In this document: in pieces, positions 7,287 through 50,563 of the stretch
How the letters are laid out: every line of letters begins with the position of its first letter
Numbering within the stretch: position 1 is the stretch's first letter
Source: Hysterangium stoloniferum
Taxonomy: Eukaryota; Basidiomycota; Agaricomycetes; Hysterangiales; Hysterangiaceae
Reading direction: 5' to 3'
NCBI GenBank assembly: GCA_015178975.1
Contig: WHVD01000006.1
Coordinates: 496,001-560,000, forward strand
Length of the DNA: 64,000 bases
Notes under the pieces: model-generated
What the model was told of the DNA's origin: nothing
Databases searched by the model: none
Seen by the model: the letters and a program-made list of their open reading frames with translations, nothing else
Program-made: the position numbers and the translations under genes

Positions 7287-10200
7287 TTAGACAACAGTAA
7301 CCGGGGGCGATCCCGGCGCGAGTAAATCAAAGTTAGGGGGGGGTGGAGAGGGGAGACCGGCAGTTTGACAGGCTTGTGCTAAGTTAGCATGGAGAGTCAG
7401 GTATCGCGACCGTTGTGCTAAAATAAATGTAATCGGTCGGTTTTAAAGGGAATGTCGATACGATAAGACTTACCTGGACATGGCCATAAGCAGGATAAAT
7501 AATCCATTGGGGGGAAGAAGGCTCGGCAAACCTCAAGGGCAATAATAAGCGAGTTGTCGCATCGCCACAACGATAACGACCTAAAGAAAATCGAATATTA
7601 AAGGATCGAAAGTACAACTGCGAATGGTATATACCTCGCTACCTGACCCATGAACCACCAAATGAAAAACGGACGCTGTGCTAGGATATTGTTTTTGTGA
7701 CCGGTAATTGTGTGCAAACCATGCATCATGCGCTTTGCTATTGTAGCTTGGTGAAGGACTATTAAAAAGATGGTTATGTCCTGCGTCTGCCAAGTGAAGT
7801 AGTGACACGTACGCCATGCCTCGGCCTTCTTACGATTGAACAAGCCACTGACCTCCCTGAAACCTATCGTAAATACGTGGATAGAGATACACAAAAGGAC
7901 TTACGATTCGGGGTGGGGAATATACCTCTGGAAATCATGCGAAATACACATCCTAGTACTGAAAAATATCTTAAAATTGTAGAGAAGCCAGTATAATCAA
8001 GGTGACTGACATGAATAAAAACTCTCGACCCTGATACATGAATGCTTGATCACAGCCACATGTGTGTGCGTCAAGAGCCTCTTCAATGGCTGTTGATTCT
8101 ATCCAGGCGTGTACTGCAAATGTAGCCTTATCACTATCGCTCACGCTGTCTCCTCGCATGCGTAAGCAGCTATTCCATAACAGCATCGCCCGGGAGTACA
8201 ATGCCCAAATCGATTCTTTGGGTGAGTGCGTGGTCGAAAAAGAGGAGGACTGAAGCAATGCCTCTCCAGGGAACAAAAGAGCGTACTAAACAGGACAGAT
8301 ACAGAACAGATCAAGGGGGAGATAATAGATGAAAAAATTGCTCGCGTACGTTTGAGGGCTGAATGCAGAAATAATCCAGGGGTGGCACAGAAAATGCTGC
8401 TGAATGAGATGTGTGCCCCGCGGCAATCTGCAAAGAGCTCCAGCATAGACGTCGACTTTCCTCCTTCCTGATTTCAGCAACAGTCCAATCGGGATTCCAC
8501 GCGGCTGTGGCAACCCACAACGGCGTATGAACATGACTACTGCGGGAGTTGTGACCAAGAGTGAGTGCCAGACACGAACAGCCCTCGCTCGATACACGGG
8601 CAGTCGCAGGAACGGGAACAACGGGAACAGCCCGGGATTTAAATAAGGAGACCCTAGGATTATCCGCGTCGATAGCAGTCAGTCCGAGAGACCGAATAAT
8701 AGAGTCGAGCATAACCATAGCAGAATTGGATCGTTCATACGAATGACAAGGATGTGCACACATCTCAAAGAGAGCCAGAAGCTGTGGAGAAGTGAAAAAT
8801 AGTACACTCAATTACACAGAGAAATCACATACCCAAGCTGCTTGGGCAAGCGTCGGCTCTATCCACTGTGCGTTGAAGCTCGCCTCCAGAGAGCTCTGGG
8901 CAGCATCTCGAAGCCACATGGCACGCAGACGGCCCGCGCTACCTCGATTGATCTCGCTCGATTTCATGAAGGTCGACAGAGCAAGACCGGCAAGAACAAG
9001 CGACGGCTGCATTTTATCACGCTCAATCGGATTACAAAACACACCAAAGAAAAGCTGCAAATCCATCAATAAAACATATGGATGTAGAAATTTTGATAAC
9101 GCACTGGGACATTGAAAAAACTAAGAAAATAGTTGCTTGAGTAGAATCTGATTACAAAAATCAACAGACTGTTTGAAAAATAAATGCAGATGCATACAAA
9201 AATTGCAGATCGGCCTGAATTTGACGAGCACTACATGATTTCAAGTCAGAGAGACAATGTGAGAGACATATAACGGAATCCTATGGTAAACTCACGCAGC
9301 GCCTCGATTGGAACCTGGTAAATAAGTCGCTAACAAACTATCCCACCACGTTTTACGACTAAAATCGAGGGACGGCTCCGCTCCAATCTCATAGGAGTCC
9401 CATTTAGGTGTTTGAGATTGAGGCTGATTTTCTTCTGGGCTATCGACTGTGATGTGACCGGAAGGATACCAAGGGAAACCAAAAGTTTGAATGTGATCAG
9501 GAATGAAAGCATGAGTCTCGGAGTGAGTAATAGTAGAAGGGACGTCTTGGACACGAGAATTTTCGACTTCAAGACTGAGGCCGAGGGAAAATGCACCTCT
9601 GTGATGCGGAGTGGACTGTTGCTGAGTTACCATTTAGCCTTCATATTGTTTAAATTAGGCCATAAACTACTCACCATATGAGGAACAAACCCAGGTAGTC
9701 GATCTATAGTGCTTGTCTCGATCTTGTGGTGGGTTGCGGTGGTTAAATCACAAACATCCGAAATCGACGCATGAGTCGGCAGGATGTGAATATGGTCTCT
9801 GGGAGAGGGTGTAGGAGCCTCTGCGGCGCCCGAAGTCGAGTCTCGAAGGCTCTCCGGGCAATTCCCTGCGTCCGCGGGCAAGCAAAAAGGTCGGGTATTT
9901 GTTTCGCTTGATTTTCTACGCTTTCTATCACTGCCAGTATTCGTGTCGAGACATTCAACATGCCTCGCGTCATGGGAAATTACATGTCCTGTGATGTTTT
10001 GGAACCCACAGGCTTCATTCTTCGCTGCCTTTGCCTTTTTACTTATACGTTGTCTGGCACCGGGCTTCTTGTCAGGACCCCTTCTTTTCGGCGCTGCATC
10101 ATAGTCACATTCGTTCGAACGCCGGGCACATTTTTGACATTTGGGTTTTCCGCCATCGCAGCGTATTTTCCTCATACGGCTAAAAAGAAGGAAAACTGAG

Positions 10201-10998
10201 TCTGTAAAAAGTCATAGATGACTAAATTTACCATTGCAGGCAGGCCACATATACTCTTGTCCGCATTTTCCCTTGAGCAGTGGGCGGTTGGTCTTCGGCA
10301 AGACCGTTAGGACCTAGTTTGACTTGTGACACATCAGGACTGCTCCCACTGAATGATCCACCAGGACTAGGATGTGCGTTACTAGACCAACGGCACTCAT
10401 TACCTCGCGAATGAATAGGGGATACACTGGGAAGAGCTGCGGAGTCAGATGAATGTGAATTCAAAGGAAAAGATATCGAATCAAAGGATCGACCAGGAGC
10501 CGACGGGGAAGAATCATCGGTCCAAGTAAGGTGTTCTCCAGGAGATCTGGAGCGGGATCCAGTAGAAGAGGGGAATGTTGGGAATGTGTGGGAAGATATT
10601 TCAGGAGCGGCCGAAGGGATGTGAGTGGAAGGGGAATAATTAGACTCGTGGCTGTGAGACGGTATCTGAGGATCATATGAATGATGAGCATGTTCATTAG
10701 ATTTCGAGGGGGGATGATGATCGAGGAGACCTGAAACAAAAAATCGAATTAATAACAATAACTAGGAACTTTTAGGGCCAAACCTGGGCTTACACCTACA
10801 TTGTTCAGAACAAGAGATCTTAGCGTCGCTTAGTTCATCTTCTAGACGTAAATCAAAGCCAAAGGGAGCATTTGGATCAAAGGAGCGTTGGGATGCCACT
10901 CGTAATTCTTCTTGCAAAGAAGAGGAATGGTCGGCAAAAGACTGTTCTTTGGGATGTTGACAACTAGGGACATCGTGGAATCTGGCCATTGAAAGCAT
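7287..10998 (-). CDS. Zn(II)2Cys6 fungal transcription factor
   Basis: A large multi-exon gene for a sequence-specific nuclear regulator. The N-terminus (10998 down to about 10300) is Ser/Pro/His-rich. The zinc cluster is split by an intron inside its second Cys codon: ACLQC joins RMRKIRCDGGKPKCQKCARRS and then NECDYD, giving C-x2-C-x6-C-x6-C-x2-C-x6-C. A basic linker follows (KRRGPDKKPG). The middle-homology region runs from about 9070 to 7500: IERDKMQPSLVLAGLA, then WSSLQIAAGHTSHSAAF, then WALYSRAMLLWNSC. Further exons give RKKAEAWRT, HGLHTITG and RPFFIWWFMGQ, then SLSLWRCDNSLIIALEVC and DYLSCLWPCP. The last short exon ends at a TAA at 7287-7289. The target genes cannot be inferred from context. 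A second Met at 10989 is an alternative start. Confidence 0.88.
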
Positions 10999-15258: not shown

Positions 15259-16152
15259 AACTAGCGGAGGCTCACACACAAACGTTGAAGGTTGGGAAGA
15301 GGAGAAGGTTCGAGGAGCTGGTGAAAAACGCTTGTTCACTAGAACATAATAAGTATGGGATTGGACTGTGCGAAGGTTCTACTCAGAACTGTCGAGTGCA
15401 AACATAGGCGATCAAGCTGTCACCTGCCAGGGAGATGCTTCTGAGACGCCCTCGCGACTGTGCCCCTGAGCATATAACTACAAGATGGTGCCTTTATTGG
15501 CATGAGAATAAATAAACGATCCTGTTTCCATGTGGGATGACGGGGAATAATGAACGTGTATAACATGGATGACGTTGAAAAGTTGATTACGTTCAAGTTC
15601 AACCGAGGATATTTGGTGAAAAACCATTATTACGATTGGCGCCCGATGTCGGACTCCACACACCCAGGCCCCTTTGCGTTGAATCGGAGTTAAAATAGGG
15701 TACATTTCAAGCTGGCAATATTGAATAGTGAACACTACATACATCACACATCATTACAGCCTCATGGCCGAACAGTTCTGCCGCCTTGAAGAAGTCAGAC
15801 GTAAGGAAGTATATGCGAGATGATCTGTGAGATTCAGGGGACCACTTCAACAAAAACTTTGGATAGTGATCACGTTTCTTCTATGTAGATTATGTAAAAT
15901 ACACGATTGTTTCACGTGATTTTATGTTACATAATCGAAGCTCGCTTGGCTACCTTGATAATTCTAGTATCTTTTATATTCAATGTGATTCGATGTTTTA
16001 CCGGTAATTCCTAGATGCTTACAAGTATTTTTTTATATTTCTGGCTGCAGTTGAATCGTTACATTCATGAGAGCCGGATCAAACTCATGCAATCGTCGGG
16101 ATTGAAATCTTGTCGGGAGTTGAAACCTTTCCATTCCTCGACGCCACACCCA
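15259..16152. other. Intergenic, divergent promoters of the membrane protein and MON1
   Basis: No further gene seen. Short ORFs at 15420-15747 (minus) lack motifs, although part near 15420-15480 may be an untranslated 5' exon of the preceding gene. Confidence 0.45.
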
Positions 16153-18804
16153 ATGACGTCGATACAACCTCAAACCCCTCCTCGGCCATATACGCCGTCT
16201 TCTTCAACTGGAAGAGAAGGCCGCGAGCGTCTCCTTTCAATTCGATCTCCATCTGCCCCGCCGCTGCCAGTGAGACTTACTCCATCTCGTGGGATATCTC
16301 AAGCAACACTCACTGCACTTCCTCCTCGGCTACATGTTTCCTCAGTGATGTCGAGCCCTGGCTCGTCTGTGCTCAACCTTGATCTCACAGAAGGCATCAT
16401 CCTACGAGATGTGGATGCCGAGGACAGCCCTGACGTTGGCGAGACGGACGAGCAAATCGAGGGTGTGTTTGCTGAATCGAGTGAGGATGGCGAAGAGAGG
16501 AAGAAGTTATTGAGAGACCAGTTGCGGAACACACTGAAGACGAAGCATACGCGTACGCATGTCGTTATATAATGTGGTGGCTGTCTGTCGAGTGTTCCAT
16601 TAGAGCACATTGCATCGCAAGATCACGGCATCGGACGATCTAAAGACCCACCATCGGACATCAACACCTTACCAGATACCCAGGGTACGTGTCAATGTTT
16701 AATAAGCTCTGATTGTGTGCATATTGGCAATTGGGCTTTATATACCCATGAAAATAATTCATGGTATATAATTAGTTATTCATGCTGAATTCCACCCATA
16801 GTTCCCAGAGACCGATTTCCACAAAGGCAATTTCTTATATTTACTGATGCTGGCAAGCCCGTCTTTGTTAGGTTGGTTGCGGAGATCACTCTATTCGCTG
16901 CTAAGGGCCCTTATCCTATTCTCATTGGCAGTCGTCCTCCCGAAGCTACAGAAGACATCACATCTATTACTGGCATTACATCCGCACTAATATCTGTCTT
17001 TGCGGATAATACACTTTCGCCGTCATCGTCGGCATCCAACGCTGACAAACTCCGGTGTATAAACGCAGGCTCAACCCGGATTACTTTTTTTTTGAGAGCC
17101 CCTCTATATTATGTCTCTGTCAGCAAATGGGGGGAACCAGAGAGTGTGGTGCGTATGTTTCTTCATTCACCGCAAGCTAATAAGCTTATACACGCCCCTC
17201 GTGTGCGATATAGTCACGAATGCAGCTAGAATATCTTCAACTACAAATTTTCAGCGTCCTAACCGCCTCTCAACTTCGTCGAATATTCGAGCGTCGTTCC
17301 AATTTTGACCTAGGACGCCTCTTGGAAGGTATGTACCAATTTACCATCTGCTTAGAGAGCTTTCACGTAACACCCGCAGGCACGGAATCATTTTTATACA
17401 CATTAATCTCACGTCTGCAATGTAGCATCGCTTTATATACCACTCTTTCCGCTCTTTCCTCATTAAGAATCGATCCCTTACTCAGATCTCGCATAGGGGA
17501 CACACTAGTTCCGAACTCAAAGGTGGGCAGCTTGGTGAGTCATTCTCGAAATTTTTAGTATGGCAGATTTTCTCTATGATGGTGCATTGATTCGCTATGG
17601 ATTATTTGATTTTAGGATATTTTATATGCTATCTTAGTATCCGGCGACCGGATCGTCACCATAGTGCGGCCCAAGAAGCACAGCGTGCACCCTACTGGTA
17701 AAATATAATTTTTGCGAATACTTTCATCGTCTCAACTGTTGGTAATTCAGACCTTCATATTCTCCTCAATGCCCTGCATACCCCATCCATTGCTGCAAAT
17801 CCAGCGTCTTGGCTTCCTATCTGCCTTCCCAAGTTTAACCCACGGAGTTTTGTGCACGCTTATGTGTGCTTCTTAGATCACGATCAACCGGACACATTAA
17901 TAAAAAACCCTAACCAAGGGAAACGATCATTCGAGGAGCTTCCGACAATTTCAGTGAGTTCAGAAGAGAGCTCGGTAAATTTAGCGACAGCTACGCCATC
18001 TCTCTCTGACCCAGAGGTATCCTCAGCAGAGGGAAGCCGCGACCATACTACTGGGTCTGACTCCCTTAAGATACCAAATAACTTCCGGAAAGGCAGTGTT
18101 TTCTCAGATTCTTTCTCTGATAAGGGCGGGTTAGCCCTTGTCACAGTGAGTGGCGGTGGTGAGTTCGACGCTGTTCGGAATTGGAGCGATAACGTTGCGA
18201 AGGTGAAAAATCCATACCATTCAAGCTATAGGCTTGTTAAATTGATTGGTCCCCATGTCCAGACACTAGAGACAACGAAACTTTTAGCACAACTTCGAAC
18301 AGCAGCGAAGGAAGCGCCGTATGGCTGTTCCGAGCTGGGTATTCCCGGACTGTTACATTTTTTGTACAAGAGTCGAGTACATGTGCAAGCAACTTGCCCT
18401 GTATGGGATGACGACTACCAGTCTAGTGACGATCAACATCGGTAAGACTTTCCTAAATGACGCATCCTGTCAACATTAGACAAGCTCGATTTTATTTTAG
18501 GTTAATCACGCTATATCAAACCGTCCATGATGCTATCCATGCAAAATCTGGACAAGGCGGTCCGCTTAAGCTGCAGTATATTCGCACAGAAAAGGAAGCC
18601 GTTATGGGTTGGGTTAGGGGATTTTTTTTACATAATTTATTCGTTGACGAATTTTGCAACCAGATAACCCAACCTTTCGAACTTTATATTGCATTATCAC
18701 CTCGACTACCAAAGACTGCCGCCGTTGGGGCTGCAAATGCAGTGGCGCGTTGGGCCAAACGGGAAGAAGCACGGTTGTTTCTGCGTGATGCACCTGTTTT
18801 CTAG
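16153..18804 (+). CDS. MON1: Vacuolar fusion protein MON1 (Rab7 GEF subunit)
   Basis: MON1 pairs with CCZ1 to activate Rab7/Ypt7 during endosome-vacuole and autophagosome fusion. Exon 1 starts at ATG 16153 and encodes a Pro/Ser-rich tail followed by an acidic segment (DVDAEDSPDVGETDEQ). The core then begins with RQFLIFTDAGKPVFV, the family hallmark opening the first longin domain. It continues with LRCINAGSTRITFF, the block SQLRRIFERRSNFDLGRLLEG, and ALVTVSGGGEFDAVRNWS. The last exon has KAKSGQGGPLKLQY-like and FELYIALSP segments and ends KREEARLFLRDAPVF, as in animal MON1. About eight introns are inferred, including one splitting the Ser codon after KPVFV. The gene converges on mS41, with stops 72 bp apart. 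ATGs at 16015 and 16087 are alternative starts. Confidence 0.92.
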
Positions 18805-18876
18805 GCAGTTGGCAATTAATAATGGCCTTATTTGAGTTTGCATTTCATAGTTTGACTGAATTGCGCAAAAATGATG

Positions 18877-19433
18877 CTACCGATGCCGACGAGATCGAAT
18901 GCGTTTCCCAAACTGGACAGAGGGTCCCCACCTATAAAATGAAATTTGTTCGATCAGTATTAGCTCGACAAGGCGTAATGAAGACAAACCCTCGTATCTT
19001 TTTCTTGGGCTTTTCGGGGTGGGCTATCTCAGTTAAATCATGCCCAGCTTTAAACTTTTCCATTGCCCACAAGATATATCTATAGAGGCGGGGTTGTGCG
19101 ATCATAGACACCCCTGGTAAATAGCGTACTTACCGACGATCTTGAATACCGACTCCTTCCTTCTTCATGCCGGTACCACCCATTTTCCACATCGTTTCCC
19201 AGTCGCCGACCTTTAACTTGGTATCGCATGATCGACCAATTGCGGTGAGAAAATCCTGAGGAGTTTGAATGGGACCTGTGAAAATGTCCATTACAATCTA
19301 TGGTCGTATCGAAACTGGAAAACAGACCCCGAGGTGCTGGAACCGGCCTGAACGCTGCTGGCGTGCGGTATTGTCTAGCGATTGCGTATACGCGGGGCCA
19401 CAGCACCTCCCGGTGAAGAGTGCCTAGTAGCAT
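18877..19433 (-). CDS. FYV4: Mitochondrial small-subunit ribosomal protein mS41 (FYV4, IGR motif)
   Basis: Four exons from ATG 19433 to a TAG at 18877-18879. The N-terminus (MLLGTLHREVLWPRVYAIAR) is basic and hydrophobic, consistent with a mitochondrial targeting peptide. The spliced core has TPQDFLTAIGRSCDTK, then GDWETMW, GTGMKKEGVGIQDRR and YILWAMEKFKAG, matching the IGR domain of mS41 (yeast Fyv4). The protein ends WGPSVQFGKRIRSRRHR. mS41 is a structural component of the mitochondrial 37S subunit. Length (about 130 residues) fits the family. The last two introns are 54 and 58 bp. A plus-strand ORF at 18822-19085 is antisense to this gene. Confidence 0.88.
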
Positions 19434-19722
19434 CTCGCTGAAGGATTCCGAAGCCTGGCTTGCTGGGTTTCAAATTGACTTGCTCCCAAAATGGTAAGTA
19501 AGAGTTGGTCAGTTCATAAAATGCTATGGTTAAAGATACTTCTTTCAATCCCAATTTGGCTGTGAACCTAGCCGTAGCGGTCTAAGAAATTTGGCTTTTA
19601 AAGATATAGTGACTCAATTCAAGGGCTTTTTTGCTGGTTACTTTTACTTTTACTACGCGTCCACAATATGTGCCGTGCGAATTCTCCCAGATTGAGGTTT
19701 TTGATTTTTACTCTGCTCAACA
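19434..19722. promoter_or_regulatory. Shared divergent promoter of mS41 and EBP genes
   Basis: 289 bp separate the two start codons, so both promoters must lie here or overlap the genes. No specific factor site was identified. Confidence 0.5.
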
Positions 19723-20686
<964 letters not shown>

Positions 20687-20851
20687 AAGCACTTTGACCA
20701 ATTGTTTTTTCCGAAGTTTAATGATACCTGGATATCAACTATGAAGGGTGTTTGATTTGGTCACTTCGAGTGAACTACATGCAATGATATTACACAATTA
20801 CTCCGGCCTTCCCTTATCTACTTTCTTGTGTAAAATGCGCCAAATGAATCG

Positions 20852-23800
20852 ATGGCTTTGAATATAGTGCTGTTACCCGAAGGCCTAAATATGGGGATCC
20901 GATCGCAGGGAGGTGAACTTTATTGTTTTCAAATACGACGTGCGTCACGTGAACACACTCCAGTCTGGCGGCTGGTTATGATTCAGAACCAAGTCTCGAT
21001 CCCCTTTGACCATGTCGACATGATGCTGCGACACGCTTCAATTGGCCCCATACCGCGCGCCAGCGAGGTCCGATCAATGCCTATCTTCGAATTGGGCGCG
21101 TCGCTAGAGAATACCGAAAAATGCGAAGTAAGCTTTGATCAGTGGCGCGACCGTTTGATCCTTCACTTCGCATAATCCCAGAGTTTCATTTTGGAAAAGG
21201 TCATCGGCATTGGGACAACTTCCGTCGTTTATTTGGCAACCTGTACCAAGGGCAGGCTGATTGGCCGACGGGTAGTGGTCAAATCGGTACGTTTTCCGCT
21301 TGATTAATTATTTCACGAGAAAGTTTGGGGAAAGAGGGCCAAATTTGCGATTCGCTGGAGCCCCCGTCCCTCTCGTCAATAACACATACCCTATCATGTC
21401 GGCACTGCTAACTAATTTTCCGAATCCCACACTCCTGAATGAAGATGCCAGCGCCTGAATCTCCTGTCACGGCGCATATATCATTACATCATCCAGCTCT
21501 GGTCTCCCTGCACTCTTCTTTTGGTGTTCCTGGTTTTGAGTGTCTCATACTGGAGCTATGCGAGGGAGGTAGTCTATGTGACTTCCTCGTCTCGAGGGGA
21601 GGACTCACCAACCCATGTGCGAACCCTCGTTTGACGGAAGAGCAACTGCGACCTATTATTCGTAAGACTGCCGAAGGACTAATAGCTTTGCACTCTTATG
21701 GCATTGTTCATGGGGATGTAAGACCCCATAATGTTTTTGTGACAGGCGATGGTCGAACAGTAAGGCGCCGCCGCTGTTTCTTACATACTCAACTTGCCAA
21801 ATTCAATTTATTCAGAAGCTTGGAAATTTCGGCAGAACATGCAGCAGATTACTCGTTAATCATCAACCCCATTACTCCGACTTATGCGATAGAGCTAAAT
21901 ATACTTCAGCGTAAGCAAGCAAAAACAGATACTTTACACTGACGCTATTATTAAACCAAAGTGAATACAACAACGCCCGCTCCCCAGATGTTGCATCAGA
22001 TATATGGTCCTTGGGTTGTATGGTTGTAGTCCTCTTAACGGGGCGCACGTCATTTCTGGTGGGTATCCTCAGGCGCCACACTTCAGTACTAACCTCAACC
22101 ACATCAACGGACACTGATGCAATCTCTTTAACCAGCCAAGGCACCAGGGAAGGAATGAAAAAGCCATCTATGAATTGCCAGCATTTCTGAGAATTTCGCC
22201 AGTAGCTGAAGACTTGATCCAAAGGCTTTTCAACGCTGTTCGTTTGTTACCCCTTCGGTGCGGAAGCTGATGCTGATGGCTATTAGGATCCTGCTCAGCG
22301 GCTGCCCTTGTGTGACGTCCTCACTCATCCGTTTCTAGACGCTTCTCTTCCGAGTCGCAATCTGGAAAGTCACTTTCGAAATTCTGCCGATCATGACAAA
22401 GAACTGGTATTTACTGAGAGTGGCTCCGCTAGCAAGACAGCCCCTTTAATGGTGATGGGTGGTCGTAACACTGCAAAGATGAATAGATTCGCCCGTCAAA
22501 CCCCTAAGCTTGCCAACCCCGTTCTCTCTGAGGGTAATGATATATTGACAACGGTCATTAGCACCGAATCTGTTCTTCCGCTGCAGTCGCCGCTACAGCT
22601 AGATCCCCCCTTTATTTCGCGTGTGAAGACTCCGTCTAGCATAAGAGAAGCCTGGAGAAGACTATCGGCCCGTCCAGAATCAGAAAATAGCAATGCAGCG
22701 TATAATAGAGATTCTAGACCTCCCTCTGTAGCATATGCCTCAGGGCCGGTCGATGAACAGCAAAAGATCGCCAGAAAACCTCTTGGGGAGATAGGAAATA
22801 TTAATTACGTCTCCAGATGTATGGGCAGGAGAGGACCGGGAGAGAAGGAGGATGGGGAGATTAGGGGGGGAGAGGATGTCCAGGCGCGATCTTCCTCACT
22901 TTCGGCAATACCATCCCCTCCGCCGACCTTTCCGAGCAGTTTACAGCCCAAAGACGTTGTTCAGACTTCATCTGCTGCACCGAATGTTGCGTCCTCGCAT
23001 CCATCAGAATGTGATGATCGTGACATTGGCATCCACTGCCTGCAAGAGAAGGGCATCTTGACCGCCAACTTGAATGCTGCGTCGTCGAATGAGGATTGTC
23101 CGCCCGCTATACTCCGAACGAGTGCTCCGACTTGCCTGCATATTGCGCCACTTCTTCCTCAGACCCATAAGGTTGCACAAGGTCAATTAGTCGTCATGCC
23201 GTCGCGTAGTCTGCTCGTGGACCTCAGAGAAGGCGAACGACGAGCCGGAGGTAAAGGGACGAGCGTTTTGGTTATTAGCCCCGACGGACAACAGGTACGC
23301 GGTTGTCCTATTAACGACAAAAGTAATAACCAGTAGTGCTTTATTATTTAATCAGATAAAAGTCTACGAGGCGCTTCACCTAAGTACTCCATCTGTACTT
23401 TCCGAACCCCAAGCTATATGGGTTCTTGATGAATTGCCGGAGAGGTACTGGGGAAGTTACAGGTTTGCCTCTCTATATATTGAAACACTCAAAAAACGAA
23501 CACCATGGGTAGGTTTGAACTCTAAAGGTATGGTACGGTAGTGTTGAGATTAAAAAATTTTTTTTGAATAGATTGTTTGGAATACCCCTGAGGCGAAGTT
23601 CATGGTGATGTCCAACGGACCTAAAGGGGACATACACGCGACATTTCCTTGCCCAACGAATAGCTTGAAAGAGGGTCGTTACGTCTCTCGCGAAGTCGCT
23701 GAGTCATCTACGAGAATGAAGATAAGATTTTCTCGGCAGCAGGGAACAGTGGAAATCTCACGTTTCAGGCCTTCTACCAAAAAGAGAGGAAAGGGGGAAT

Positions 23801-24021
23801 GGGTATTCAAGTCTGAAACAATCATGCAGGAACAACTTGTCGTTGGCGACACATCATTCCAGAAAATGACTGTGGAAGAGCGGCTGGGACTTGGTTACAT
23901 TATTGAAGGGCTCAAACTTGTGGAAGCTGCGGAAAAAATCTACAGGGACGCCGATCGATGCGGTGGGAGAGAAGATCCAGTGGCAAGAAGACGTTCAGAT
24001 CTGCCCGGATCAGTCGTTTAA
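20852..24021 (+). CDS. PLK4/SAK-like protein with cryptic polo boxes and a degenerate kinase domain
   Basis: Exon 1 encodes about 92 residues of no known domain. The kinase fold follows: EKVIGIGTTSVVYLA (Gly loop), RRVVVKS (ATP Lys), LILELCEGGSL, HGDVRPHNVFV (catalytic loop), KLGNFG, TSAE, SDIWSLGCM, then YELPAFLRISPVAEDLIQ and DPAQRLPLCDVLTHPFL. The last two closely follow the PLK4 C-lobe. A 300-residue disordered linker is followed by PLK4-type cryptic polo boxes: VLVISPDGQQIKVYE, DELPERYWGSYRFASLYIE, KRTPWIVWNTPEAKFMVM, and MKIRFSRQQGTVEISRF. HRD is HGD (21709-21717), DFG is NFG (Asn codon 21825-21827), and APE is SAE. The catalytic-loop Asp and ATP Lys remain. This suggests a pseudokinase or very weak kinase. 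In animals PLK4 triggers centriole duplication. The last 20 codons are uncertain, since another frame stays open to 24154. Confidence 0.8.
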
Positions 24022-26172
24022 GGTTGAGCGGACGCGAGATGCAAGATTGGCCACAGTTCTGGATCTACACTTGAGGCTCAGAAATGTATTGGTTTCCGCG
24101 TCTTCGCATATGTATAAAAGAACGCAAGCCCCATGCCAACAGGGCGATCAGTGACAGCAATTCAATTCAATTGTGAGAACCCAATTGGGGAAGGTACAAG
24201 AAGCTCGGCTGCTTAGATGGAAGGGCTTGTGTTCTTCTAGGTTGTGGCTGAAGCTTAGAGGACGTCTATGGAAATAGAATCAAATACTTTGCCCACAACC
24301 CTAGGGATTATGACTATTAATGGTGCGATCTGAGCATGTGGACAGACTGGGAAGGGGGCGAATATTAAAGCTGCAGTCGGAAATCGGGCGGGAATGGAGG
24401 GATCGTCATTATTGTCATAAACAAACGCTTACATAAATAGAACGTGTTTGCAACATGTTCTTGCTACCATCTGTGCGACTCAATGAAGGATTTGATGGAA
24501 GACACTGGCTAATAGAGAAAGCGGAGAGCTTAGGGGTTGCTACGTGGAGTGTATAAGAGAGGACATCAGACGATAAGGATAAGGACTTGACGCCTTTCAT
24601 TAGGGGGTGTAACTTCAGTTTGGCAAGGGGCGGCTTACACGGCCCCACCCCGGGACCCCGGCGGGAGAACACGCCGTGACACAAGTGTGACAAAGAAGAA
24701 CGCGCTATGTCACGCGAGTCACACGTCCGGTTCATACGTCCCCTTCATAAAGGGGTAATCGGCTGAATTGGCGCTTGTTTTTGATGGCGTCATCACCATC
24801 GATGCGATGTCAGAAGATCCCCCAAACAACCGTCCACAAACACATTCATCTGCACTTTGCGTACCTGTCCAAGGCTTCGCAAGCAGTCCTCAAGTGCATC
24901 TCGTTAATATCCATCTTCTGTTCCACGACATGCACGTTAGCAGGCAATTGCAGATCTTAACTTAGCACAGACCTTCTCCAACTGATCAGCCCATCAGTCA
25001 CGCGGCTAACCATGTGTTTGGATCCAAGATTAAAAGATTATCTTTCAGCTGTCTCTTCAGTGGCTGAGCTCCAAAATACAGTGCTATTTCAGCCTTTTCA
25101 GGTCCAATCATCCACACAGCTCGCGATGCCCCAGTGTCGCCGAGACGCCACAAAGTCGTTGGCTTCCGGATTACCCATGGTCGTTACATGAACCACGGGT
25201 ATCCCCATGGAATCCCCTTTCAGCCTGTTTGGGAGTGTTTGCTTGCCGAATACTCAACCTTTAATTTCATTTCCGATCCAGACATGATGAAAGTGGTGCA
25301 GTGCGGTCGAAGTGCAGACCACTGGGCGCTGATCTTTGCATGGCGCTCACACTGGTGCAGCTGTTAGTTCGTCGTGCCAGCCATAGCAAACTTTATTCTC
25401 GTCCGGATCTCGACTCGAAAGCAGAATGGAGTGTAAACCTTGGCCCCTTCAGACAGAGTCTCCTGCCACCTGTTGTTGTCCATCCCCTGTTTATTTGAGT
25501 TTCGACCTGCCCTTAGGTGCAGGTGTCAGTGTATATTACTCATGATATTTTCAGCGTTTGATGTCCTTGTTGAGAATTGCCCTCCAGAACCATCGGCTAG
25601 TGCCTGTGCTTACAAGGAAGAGGGAGGGTTTCCTCGACAACGCCTTTGTATGAGACAAGGCCATTGAAAAGCTGTGCAGGATCGTACCTCAAGCATATGC
25701 TTACTGGGAGAATATAGAAATAGGGATCTGAAGTCTCCCGGGCCGTGTATCAAAACTCACGATCGGATAGGTCGCCTAGTAATGATCCCTGGGTCAAGGC
25801 GCTCATCGAAGCTGAATTGTAGAACGAGATATGAGAACAGTGGACCAAAACAAGCAGATCCTTAGGATAAAGAGATCTGACGCGGCTGAGAAGAGAACAT
25901 GGAAGCAGGAGACAAGAAGCTTAAATTACCAACGTAATCAGCCGTTGAACATAAATGATAATAAATAATATAATTATTATTCGTCGGAGTTGGACTGATT
26001 CATTCAAGGCCTCTGCCATTTGGCCGTTAACCTGGCTGGCATTTTCTCGGTGCCTCTGCATTCTCCCTTTCTGTTCTCTTAAAGTGCTCCAGCCCGTTGT
26101 CGAGCACGCCGGGTCACAGAAAGTCCTGCTCAGAACCTCCCTACCAAGTCGCATTGCGATACCGTGCGTTCT
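24022..26172. other. Intergenic about 2.1 kb
   Basis: No gene supported. Short ORFs on both strands (for example 25134-25367 plus and 24415-24735 minus) have no motif. A GC-rich stretch lies near 24630-24680. The last 250 bp are the 5' flank of the HTH gene. Confidence 0.45.
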
Positions 26173-29100
26173 ATGGTGCACGACCAGGAGATGCATGCCC
26201 ACCACACCATCCACGATGACCACTACAGCCCAATATACCCATCTGACGTCCATTCTTATTCTACTTCCTCCTCTGACTTTATCATTCAAGCCGAAGTTGC
26301 TCGACAAAGATTCCCCTCTTCGGATGCATTCGGGTCCCACAGTCACCACGATCACCACGAGGCTGAACACGTTTATAACTCGCCTCAGCTCACCCTTGAC
26401 CCTTCTACCCTTGATTTACGTTCAAATCCCAACGACGACCCCTCTACTTCTTCTGCCAATCCTACCGGCAGTAATAATACCACGCCCACAGGTTCACTCC
26501 GTCTCGCCGCTTACAACTCGCCGAATTTCAGCTCTCCTGGTGTTGTAACACGACGCAGAGCTAGAGCAGCCCTAGGGCAGCTACGGATTCCCATACACGC
26601 CGGCCCCAACCCCGACGTGCACGTCCAATCCCCACAGGAGCAGCACCGTCCCAACACAGAAGATCGACACCAGGACCAGCACCAACCTAGTGATATGCAC
26701 GATGTACAGATGCTTGGTGGGGAGATCCAGGTCCATATTGACAGTCACAGTGACCATGCAGTGATAGACTCTATCGGCCACGAGCAGGTAGAAGGCATGG
26801 ACCGTTCGCCTCATGTATGTGTCACCGACTTCCCATTACACTGCACCCCGTACTAAATGACCGTAGATGTATGCTATATTGAACAATCCGACGCAGCGAT
26901 CAGGATACTATCTGGGGTCTGAACCATACTCGAACTCGCCGACAAACGCGCCGACCCCCCCGGATGCTTCCCCTCACTCGGACTTGCAGACGATGAGCCC
27001 TTCGTCCTCGCTCACGTCGCCGACTTCTTCGTCCACTGCCTTCTCTCGCACCTTCCGTTCCAGTTCGCTCTCGATGGCTATACCGCCGAGCAGGTCCATG
27101 TCGTTAATACCTTCCCCTCCTCAAGGTTCCCCTGCTCAACAGTCCCTTTCGCACCAATTGTCGCCTCATCCCCACATGCATCCGGCGCCGTATTACCCAC
27201 TCCCTCACAATTCGGGATCGCCGGGATTTCCGTCGACTCCCTCGCATCATGTTCAAGGGTCCTCTTCGTCCTCCCACTCATCAGGGCAGACTCGCTATTC
27301 ATTCCGTGGCTCGCCTGCCCCACGCAACTTCGGCCGTGGCCACGCCCGTTCTAACAGTTATGGGACAGTGAGCACTACGAGTGTCCGAAGTAACTCCCCG
27401 ACCAACAGTGTAACGAGTGCTCTGACTTCGCTATCAGGTGGCGCTGGCGGAAGTGCGCCCTCTTCCACTGGTCCAGTCCACAGTCCAATCTCTTATGGAG
27501 ACACCGGCGACATTCAGATGCCTTTCGCGACGTCGCCGTCGTCTGAATTACCACATATTTCAGGCAGCCACCTTTCAAGGGCACAAAGCCACCCTCCACT
27601 GTCAATGCCAACAGCACACCCCGCCTTGGGGTACTCATCCCTCCTACATCATCCAAGGAAGGGTTACCTCCACCCTAGTTCGGGAGGGTACGCTGGGCCA
27701 GGGGGCGGAAGTTTCATGGAGGACTGTCGCGAATCTACCACTTGGCCGAACGCATACGTTCCCTCCTCAGGACCACGATTGACAGAGGAAGAATTCCAAG
27801 CCCAATTTCCGCCAAAGCCCATTGTTCCGCGCACCCCCCATCGCAAGCAAAAGCTGGCAAATTCTGACAGGAAGGCGATTTGCATGTACGCGAAACTGCA
27901 CCCTAGTGCTCGCCAAGAGGATATTGCGGCGCGGTATAACGTCGAAAGGAGCACGATAAGTAAGATATTGAAGAACAAGGAACGTTGGCTGGGCTGCCCT
28001 GATGATGATGCCAAGGTCGCACGCAAAAGGTGAGTTGTTGTGTCCGTGTGGAATCAAACTCAAATAGATACCTTCACATCGCCTCCATTGTTCGCTTTTA
28101 TCGGTATTTGAATTGGATATTGACTTGTTTGTCTGTTTCGATAGGAAACCCAGATTCGATGACCTGGAACTCGTCCTCAAGATCTGGGTGGAGGAGACGC
28201 GTCCTCAGAAAATCGTTCTGTCTGATGCACTCATACGGTGTGTTCTCTCGTATCTAAACGCCTCAGCATGTCTTAACAGCAGCGTTTGCTTTGCCCCCAG
28301 TTCCAAAGCCAAGGAAGAGGCGCGGCGACTAGGTATTCTAGAGGATAAATTCAAAGCATCCTCGGGATGGCTCGAGAATTTTAAACATCGAGTGGGCATC
28401 AGAAAGGGCAAGTACATCGGTCGCGACCACTTCCAGGAAGCGAGTGAATCTGACAGGGAAGCATCCCCCGCTGCCAAACTCCCGCCAGATCAAAGACCAA
28501 TGTGGATGGACGTGAGGGAGGAGTCGAGCCAGTCTGGGAGGGATCCTTGGTCAACCTCGCTCCCTGACCACGCTGCACACGATGTCACACAAGCCAAGGT
28601 GGAGGATGCGCCGTTATCGCCTCCTTTCCCGGGTACACCCGACAATTCCATGAATCAAATTGGATTTCAACTAAGCGACATGCACTCCTCGCCCTCACAA
28701 GACCACGTGTCGCAGGCAAGCGGTGCTCGGCCGAGTTCCAGACAAGAAGGCGGCAAGGCCAATGTATGCATGCGCAAGACGCGCAGCAAGACATTGGCTG
28801 AGGCTCGTCACGCCGGAACGGTGCCCCCAGAAGGAGAGTCTCCAGGTAATATTGGTTCCGTGTCAGCGATGGCTACCGGCGGACCCCCAGCGCTCGCTCC
28901 GGCGGCGCACATTGATAGTCAGGGTTATGATAACGTTTCCCGGCGGTCTCATAAGAGTTCCTCTTCGTCAAGCACGCCTGTAGCTCCAGGGGACAGTCGA
29001 GACGCGTCTGCTGGCCTGGATGCAGCCATTGATTTCATTGGGAGCCAGCCTGAGGGATTCGCCACACCAGAAGAAGTCGCCGTTCTGAAGAAGCTCAGTC

Positions 29101-48697: not shown

Positions 48698-50563
48698 ATG
48701 ATTACCCTGGACAAAATTAAGAATTATGAAATAAGCACTGGGAGTGCTTACCAAGTTTTTCCGAAGTTATGCAAAGACAATTATTTTACTTGGAGTGTGA
48801 GTATGAAAACCGTGCTGGAGTCTTTGAATTAATGGAAGGTTGTAACTGGAGAACTGGTGGATCCTATACGTGTAGATGTGAAGGTTCCAATGATGGAGGA
48901 ACTTGAGATCGAAGAGGCCTGGAAGCTTCGAAAAAAGAGGGCCTACAGCGAGATAATGCTCCACATTGAAGACGAGCCCAGAGTGGCTATAATGGTGGAT
49001 AGTAATCCGGTCAATGCATAGGAAACTTTGAAGACAACTTACGGAACACAATTGGCCAACAGTCGTGCAACACTACTTTCCAAACTCGTTCGTATGTGTT
49101 ACGATGGGACAGAAATTATTGAATATAAATCCCAAATGGACTTCATCAGACTTAAATTGTTGGAGGCTGGTCATGCCATCACGAATGCTGACTACCTCAG
49201 CCTATTTATGAGTATGCTGCCCGAGGATTTCAATATAATGTCAATGACAATTGATTATGACGTTGATACTGTGGAGGAAGTAGTCAATAAACTGCATCAA
49301 GTAGAGATTCGAAAGGAAATATGTCCAGGCTATGGCAAAGGTTCCACATTTCATGCCCAGAGGGGCAAAGGTTCCACGTTTCGCTTCCAGAGGGGAATCA
49401 GTATGCAGCGAGGAGCATATTGTAATAGGGGTCGCGGTCATGCCGCCATTCCGCGAGGAACACAGATCAGGAGAAGTACTCCACAATCTGGTTGTTTCAA
49501 ATGTGGGGATTTGTTGCATTGGGCAAGCGATTGTCCTAAAAGAAAACAAAGATATGCTCAGCGATCTGAAAATTGGAAGAACCAAAATAGAAGCAACGAC
49601 TCATCTGGAAATATGCCATCTCCCTCAGTAGCAAGTAGGGGAATGTTTACTGCCATCAAATCCACATTTTTCTTGAGCAAGGAGAGTGTGCCACATAAAT
49701 ATTTCCTGGATTCCACAGCATCAGGACATTATGTGCCAAGTATGTGTGACTTACATGATTTTATGGCATATAAAAATCCAAAGAAAATCCAAACGGCAAA
49801 TGGTGCTTATATTCATGCCAGAGGTATTGGAACATTGTGTTTCAAGGTTACGGAACATGGTCTGGAGTTTATAGGCAAAATTCCCAACGTCAAATGGACT
49901 CCAGAAGTTAAGGTGCGACTCCTTAATCCCATGCAGTTTTTCAAAGATGGATATCATGTTATGTTGAGCAAAACAGGTTCTACAATTGTCGATTCATCAG
50001 GCTGTACACTGATTGAGGCGAATGAGAGGGATAATGTATACCCTTTCCAGCTGGATACAATCTCCGTGTCACCGCCGCTATGTGAATATACAAATTTATC
50101 AGAAGATGAACTACAAAATAGGTTGGAAGACGTACCTATGATGTTTTCCATGAATTCAACATGCAATATTATGAAATGGCATCAGCGTTTGGGGCATTTG
50201 AGCACGAATGCTATTAGGAATATTGTGCGACATTTTGCGACCGGAATGGAGATTGAAGAAATTGAAGGTTTTGAAGCTGGCTGCATTGCATGTATTGAAG
50301 GTAAACAGCACAGAAACCCATTCAAAACTGGATGTACCAGAGCAACGAAATTGGGAGAATTACTCCATATGGATTTAGCTGGACCTATGGAAACGATAAG
50401 TTTCGACAAAAAGCATTATTTCATTATCGTTGTTGATGACTTCTCCTGTGCTGTATGGGTTGAAACATTAGCAAGCAAGCTGGAAACAGTGTGCAAAATA
50501 AAAGAATATATAACTCAATTGGAGATGTTATTCAATACAAGGGTCCAAGTGATCGCAACCTGA
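48698..50563 (+). pseudogene. Ty1/copia gag-protease-integrase, two stops and 3' truncation
   Basis: The frame starts MITLDKIKNYEISTG and contains a gag-type region, then a CCHC knuckle (CFKCGDLLHWASDC). A protease segment reads FLDSTASGHYV, where most copia proteases have DSGAS. The pre-integrase motif is WHQRLGHLSTNAI and the integrase starts at LLHMDLAGPM..YFIIVVDDFS. A TAA (48830-48832) and a TAG (49019-49021) lie in gag; both fit single C-to-T changes of Gln codons. From 49028 the frame is open for 511 codons and ends at 50561-50563. A GKGSTF-x2-QRG unit is duplicated near 49340-49390. Dead by truncation. Confidence 0.9.

Follow-up and report, generated by a model that had tools for sequence, protein, structure and literature searches.

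A PLK4-descended gene with an altered kinase active site in an apparently basidiomycete genome

The locus and its gene model

The window, by which we mean the whole stretch of 64,000 nucleotides that was analysed, contains a PLK4-like gene whose nine exons, spliced from the window sequence, code for 866 residues with no internal stop (Table 1). All eight introns are of the GT–AG type (49–158 nt), and the joined sequence has 38 and 53 stops in the other two frames. The frame of exon 7 (1008 nt) stays open in 0 of 20,000 shuffles, those of exons 9 and 3 in 5 and 117 of 20,000, respectively. The codon periodicity of the coding sequence (chi-square 49.8 over 2598 nt) compares with values of 9.8 for the introns (569 nt) and 9.7 for the downstream DNA (1900 nt), stretches whose lengths differ from that of the coding sequence. 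This is a real, intact gene. Its long linker is an open frame with no recognised domain.

Within the gene model, certainty is lowest for the start codon and for intron 2. Intron 2, which is 158 nt long and adjoins the alphaC region, ranks as the least certain because 10 of the 75 splice combinations that we enumerated outscore the model used, when compared with PLK4; each of these ten uses at least one donor that we judged to be weak (GTCCCT, GTTTTC or GTCAAT).

Partly overlapping the last exon, and extending beyond its stop, is another open frame of 94 codons; by eye, no splice joining it to the PLK4-like gene was seen. Upstream, on the same strand, lies a MON1-like gene with a longin domain. 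The gene that stands between the two looks by eye like an EBP-type sterol isomerase, and Pfam gave no match on the one piece of it that was scanned. Elsewhere in the window are a Zn2Cys6 transcription-factor domain, a group of open frames with a weak helix-turn-helix of the CENP-B/transposase type (both matches are below the curated cut-offs), and a Copia-type retroelement open frame with gag, zinc knuckle and pre-integrase domains, inside which a 30-bp unit is repeated 2.1 times.

Table 1. Coordinates of the features found in the window
Feature	Position	Strand	Content
Zn2Cys6 domain	9627–10211	−	
MON1-like gene	~16000–19090	+	Pfam Fuz_longin_2 and Fuz_longin_3 in open frame 17702–18442
Sterol isomerase-like gene	~19722–20690		
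PLK4-like gene	20852–24021	+	nine exons
Exon 1	20852–21127	+	N-terminal extension, 92 residues, no Pfam match; start codon uncertain
Exon 2	21182–21286	+	glycine loop and beta-3 lysine (VVVK from 21272)
Exon 3	21445–21759	+	alphaC region to catalytic loop; HGD 21709–21717
Exon 4	21816–21910	+	NFG for DFG at 21825–21833; activation loop HYSDLCDRAKY
Exon 5	21962–22058	+	end of SAE motif, DIWSLGC
Exon 6	22136–22237	+	YELPAFLRISPVAEDLIQRLF, kinase C-lobe
Exon 7	22287–23294	+	end of kinase domain (to ~22346), long linker, first strands of polo box 1 (from ~23259)
Exon 8	23356–23508	+	remainder of polo box 1 (LPERYWGSYRFASLYIETLKKRTPW); sole Plk4_PB1 place found in the genome
Exon 9	23572–24021	+	candidate polo box 2, supported over its first strands; stop codon; leaves no space for polo box 3
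Second open frame	23870–24154	+	
Open frames with helix-turn-helix	26867–29180	+	matches in 26867–28030
Copia-type open frame	49022–50563	+	
30-bp repeat	49334–49395		

Relationship to PLK4

Among PDB chains, the best match of the kinase domain is PLK4 (3.5e-33, 118.6 bits), followed by PLK1 (87 bits), PAK4 (82) and MELK (79.5). The activation loop of the best-scoring PLK4 chain contains an Asp at a position where other PLK4 chains have Thr; the latter score 116.7–116.9. The kinase domain is 32.9% identical to that of human PLK4 (SAK), over 82 of 249 columns. In a likelihood tree of five kinase sequences, the window kinase groups with human PLK4 in 99% of 200 bootstraps; a topology test gives this arrangement a p-AU of 0.994 and rejects both alternatives, that of a fungal PLK1 duplicate (0.001) and the remaining one (0.008). 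The branch of the window kinase is long, 1.65 substitutions per site versus 0.33 for human PLK4, and a long-branch effect must therefore be kept in mind, but the polo boxes point to PLK4 independently.

The assignment to the PLK4 family, proposed by the first-pass annotation before any database search, finds support in the PDB ranking, the Pfam profile Plk4_PB1, the polo-box match and the tree, and we consider descent of the gene from PLK4 as shown by these comparisons. As a control, the kinase encoded at the genome's own POLO_box locus (contig C68, spliced by eye) scores 270 with PLK1, 243 with PLK3, 227 with PLK2 and 216 with PLK4, and no more than 170 with other kinases among its 60 best matches. 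The window gene does not combine, as a PLK1/Plo1 member would, a closest relationship to PLK1 with a pair of Pfam POLO_box domains. It is PLK4 by descent, and we do not file it as a standard PLK4 because PB3 and the active-site motifs of PLK4 were looked for and were not found.

The active site

Aligned with the PLK4 chain, the window kinase has HGD for HRD, NFG for DFG and DRAKYTSAE for GTPNYISPE. Relative to PLK4, the Arg of HRD has become Gly, the Asp of DFG Asn, the activation-loop GTP DRA and the Pro of SPE Ala; the SAE motif is split between exons 4 and 5 (21906–21910 and 21962–21965). The Asp of DFG binds Mg in active kinases. Its replacement by Asn amounts to a single base (GAT to AAT, at 21825). 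A Pro occupies the alphaC Glu column, a Glu precedes it by two residues, and a Ser is found beside the activation-loop Thr column. The kinase does retain the VVVK Lys, the HGD Asp and the Asn of the catalytic loop.

HGD, NFG and the AAT codon are present where the first-pass annotation had seen them, and so are the ATP Lys and the catalytic Asp that it had listed as kept. Its reading of SAE as an altered APE holds for the change of P to A and not for the S, as PLK4 itself has SPE, and the Arg in place of the catalytic-loop Lys does not count as a loss, as PLK4 itself has HRDLT, with a Thr there.

With respect to alternative splicing, NFG starts within exon 4, ten bases from its beginning, and we saw no splice by which an Asp would be placed there. 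All 75 splices were checked for the alphaC Glu: the 48 that keep the LHHPALV motif all have the Pro in this column, and the other 27 skip the motif. We predict that the kinase domain is a pseudokinase, the loss of catalysis being well supported by its residues. Weak ATP binding or activity may remain, given that the beta-3 Lys, and the Asp and Asn of the catalytic loop, have been retained.

The polo boxes

The C-terminal and C-lobe segments by which the gene had been recognised as PLK4-like are all present in the spliced protein. The last 215 residues alone match PLK4 polo-box chains in the PDB (E 8e-8), and the protein matches Pfam Plk4_PB1 with an E-value of 8.4e-6 and 26.3 bits, 0.1 bit below the cut-off of 26.4. 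Aligned with PB1–PB2 of PLK4, the C-terminal part scores 123, versus a maximum of 71 for shuffled sequences, and the PB1 part taken separately scores 79, versus a maximum of 47 (in both cases 0 of 2000 shuffles reach the score). From these matches, PB1 is clearly of the PLK4 type.

The situation is different for PB2. For the PB2 stretch taken whole, 7 of 2000 shuffles attain the observed score; for the remainder after the first strands, 412 of 2000 do, so that this remainder is not recognisable by sequence. The Plk4_PB2 profile has no match in the window protein, nor in the genome at E 10. The claim that the cryptic polo boxes are kept is consequently upheld for PB1 and for the first strands of PB2, over which alignment supports the latter, and not for the rest of PB2. 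PB3 is absent from the gene model, which stops after PB2; a diverged or downstream exon may have escaped notice. The lack of this box had gone unremarked in the first-pass annotation. A single-sequence structure model of exon 9 alone has a pLDDT of 46.8, and its Foldseek matches are uninformative, none reaching E 0.001 or better. No relative of exon 9 was found in viral contigs. The POLO_box profile, searched in the genome, has no match near the PLK4-like gene at E 1 or better.

Polo kinases and centriole families in the genome

Profile searches of the genome (111.1 Mb, 554 contigs) found a single POLO_box locus, on contig C68, which codes for a canonical PLK1 with HRDLK, GDFG, APE and two Pfam POLO_box matches. 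Since this canonical PLK1 exists elsewhere in the genome, the window gene need not carry the duties of a Polo kinase. A second PLK4 was sought with the Plk4_PB1 family only: the first look passed on one candidate, and the one place at E 10 or better is the window gene itself (E 0.65). SAS-6_N and STIL_N have no match in the genome at E 1 or better, and Tcp10_C has one, at E 0.69, which is below its cut-off; for all three families, the control genomes gave no true positive. Exon-wise profile searches miss diverged exons, and the window's own PB1, found at only E 0.65 in this manner, is missed at the default threshold. The lack of centriole families and of a second PLK4 is a weak test because the window's own PB1 was barely found.

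From its placement as a basidiomycete, the source organism presumably has no centrioles. FunK1 kinases give 106 exon matches across the genome (the FunK1 model also matched in 2 of 14 bacterial control genomes), and DUF6534 gives 21. DUF6534 is typical of mushrooms, and richness in FunK1 and DUF6534 fits a mushroom-forming basidiomycete. The basidiomycete mating family Mating_N has no match in the genome at E 0.01, which counts against this placement, although that family diverges fast. The FunK1 places on contigs C196, C235, C442 and C527 have identical scores and open-frame lengths, which suggests recent copying.

Comparison with known systems

The window protein has its parts arranged as in human PLK4, with a kinase domain, a long linker, PB1 and the beginning of PB2; it differs by HGD, NFG, the altered activation loop and an N-terminal extension, and its gene model has no PB3. 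The degron of PLK4 is of the DSG type. The window linker has ESGSAS at residue 374, where PLK4 has this degron, in what is described as its first PEST region (PMC2955731). PB1 and PB2 are reported to dimerise and localise PLK4 and to bind Cep192 and Cep152 through acidic regions of these two proteins; PB3 is described as the distinguishing feature of PLK4 and as binding STIL with an affinity in the nanomolar range, and linker L1 contains a further site for STIL (PMC4530586). ZYG-1 of C. elegans, which is PLK4-related, is described as recruiting SAS-5–SAS-6 in a kinase-independent step (PMC11169420); the kinase activity of ZYG-1 is nevertheless required for centriole assembly, whereas the window protein is predicted to be inactive. 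The canonical fungal Polo kinase (Plo1/Cdc5 type), here that of contig C68, belongs to the polo family as well, but it is encoded by a separate gene and has the complete motifs and the two POLO_box matches described above.

Regarding the distribution of PLK4, an older review places homologues in most opisthokonts (PMC2955731), and another review states that chytrids have PLK4 whereas yeasts have lost it (PMC6070874). A survey reports the animal centriole-assembly proteins that it sought in no fungal genomes but those of chytrids, and lists fission yeast as having no Plk4; fly Plk4 expressed in fission yeast is reported not to localise to the spindle pole body (PMC6559791), which argues mildly against the idea that targeting was simply carried over. 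S. arctica, an ichthyosporean without centrioles, is described as having neither Sas6 nor Plk4, and in Amoebidium no centrioles were seen although gene profiles led the authors to expect some (PMC11153136); centriole genes and centrioles therefore need not be lost together. Our search of the literature, in titles and the openings of abstracts, met no report of PLK4 in Basidiomycota. In mushrooms, genes of this kind may already carry labels from automatic annotation.

Discussion

The explanation that we put forward, to which we give about even chances, is that the gene codes for a PLK4-descended, dimeric, non-catalytic scaffold which keeps its targeting polo box or boxes. The kinase domain, having no DFG Asp, HRD Arg or activation-loop GTP, would be a pseudokinase; PB1 and at least the start of PB2 are kept, PB3, the main STIL-binding box in humans, being gone from the gene model. 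By analogy with human PLK4, the PB1/PB2 cassette would dimerise the protein and dock it on an acidic partner, most plausibly at a microtubule-organising centre, and the pseudokinase domain and linker may hold a client protein, perhaps a substrate of the canonical PLK1 of this genome. A scaffold fits what is seen because the targeting half is kept, while the main STIL box and the catalytic residues are lost; that it works at the spindle pole is what we infer. Against it, most of PB2 is unrecognisable and the very long kinase branch may also mean decay.

An active or weakly active PLK4-type kinase, tolerating NFG and HGD and phosphorylating a fungal substrate, would agree with the retention of VVVK, of the HGD Asp and of the catalytic-loop Asn, and with the Ser that adjoins the activation-loop Thr column; we consider it unlikely, since the Mg-binding Asp is Asn, the activation-loop GTP and the SPE proline are also lost, and these several independent losses point one way. 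It is less likely still that the gene is under relaxed constraint in this lineage and heading for loss: the branch is very long and the catalytic motifs and most of PB2 are eroded, but 866 codons are open, the eight introns are all GT–AG, the long linker has stayed open without any recognised domain, and PB1 is still strong.

That an error of assembly or of the gene model makes the kinase look worse than it is appears very improbable. The change of D to N is one base, and intron 2 is long, adjoins the alphaC region and can be spliced in ten better-scoring ways; however, HGD, NFG and the DRAKY activation loop are all inside exons, all ten of these splices need a donor judged weak, and none of the 75 combinations keeps LHHPALV without the Pro. 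As for a fast-evolving duplicate of fungal PLK1, both are polo kinases and long branches can mislead a tree of five sequences, but the topology test and the PLK4-type polo box argue against it, and the genome's true PLK1, taken as control, gives the top score to PLK1, with PLK4 behind both PLK3 and PLK2; we give this reading hardly any credence.

Returning to the scaffold, a broader proposal, which we regard as possible but doubtful, is that a basidiomycete kept PLK4 long after centriole loss in this stripped form, with PB1/PB2 reused at the spindle pole body or at another microtubule-organising site. If true, the protein would be a molecular relic of centriole duplication, persisting in a centrosome that has no centrioles. 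More generally, if a PLK4 relative is intact in this apparently basidiomycete genome, the PLK4 lineage outlived the centriole there, which would offer a way into the replacement of centrioles by spindle pole bodies and into the non-catalytic roles of PLK4.
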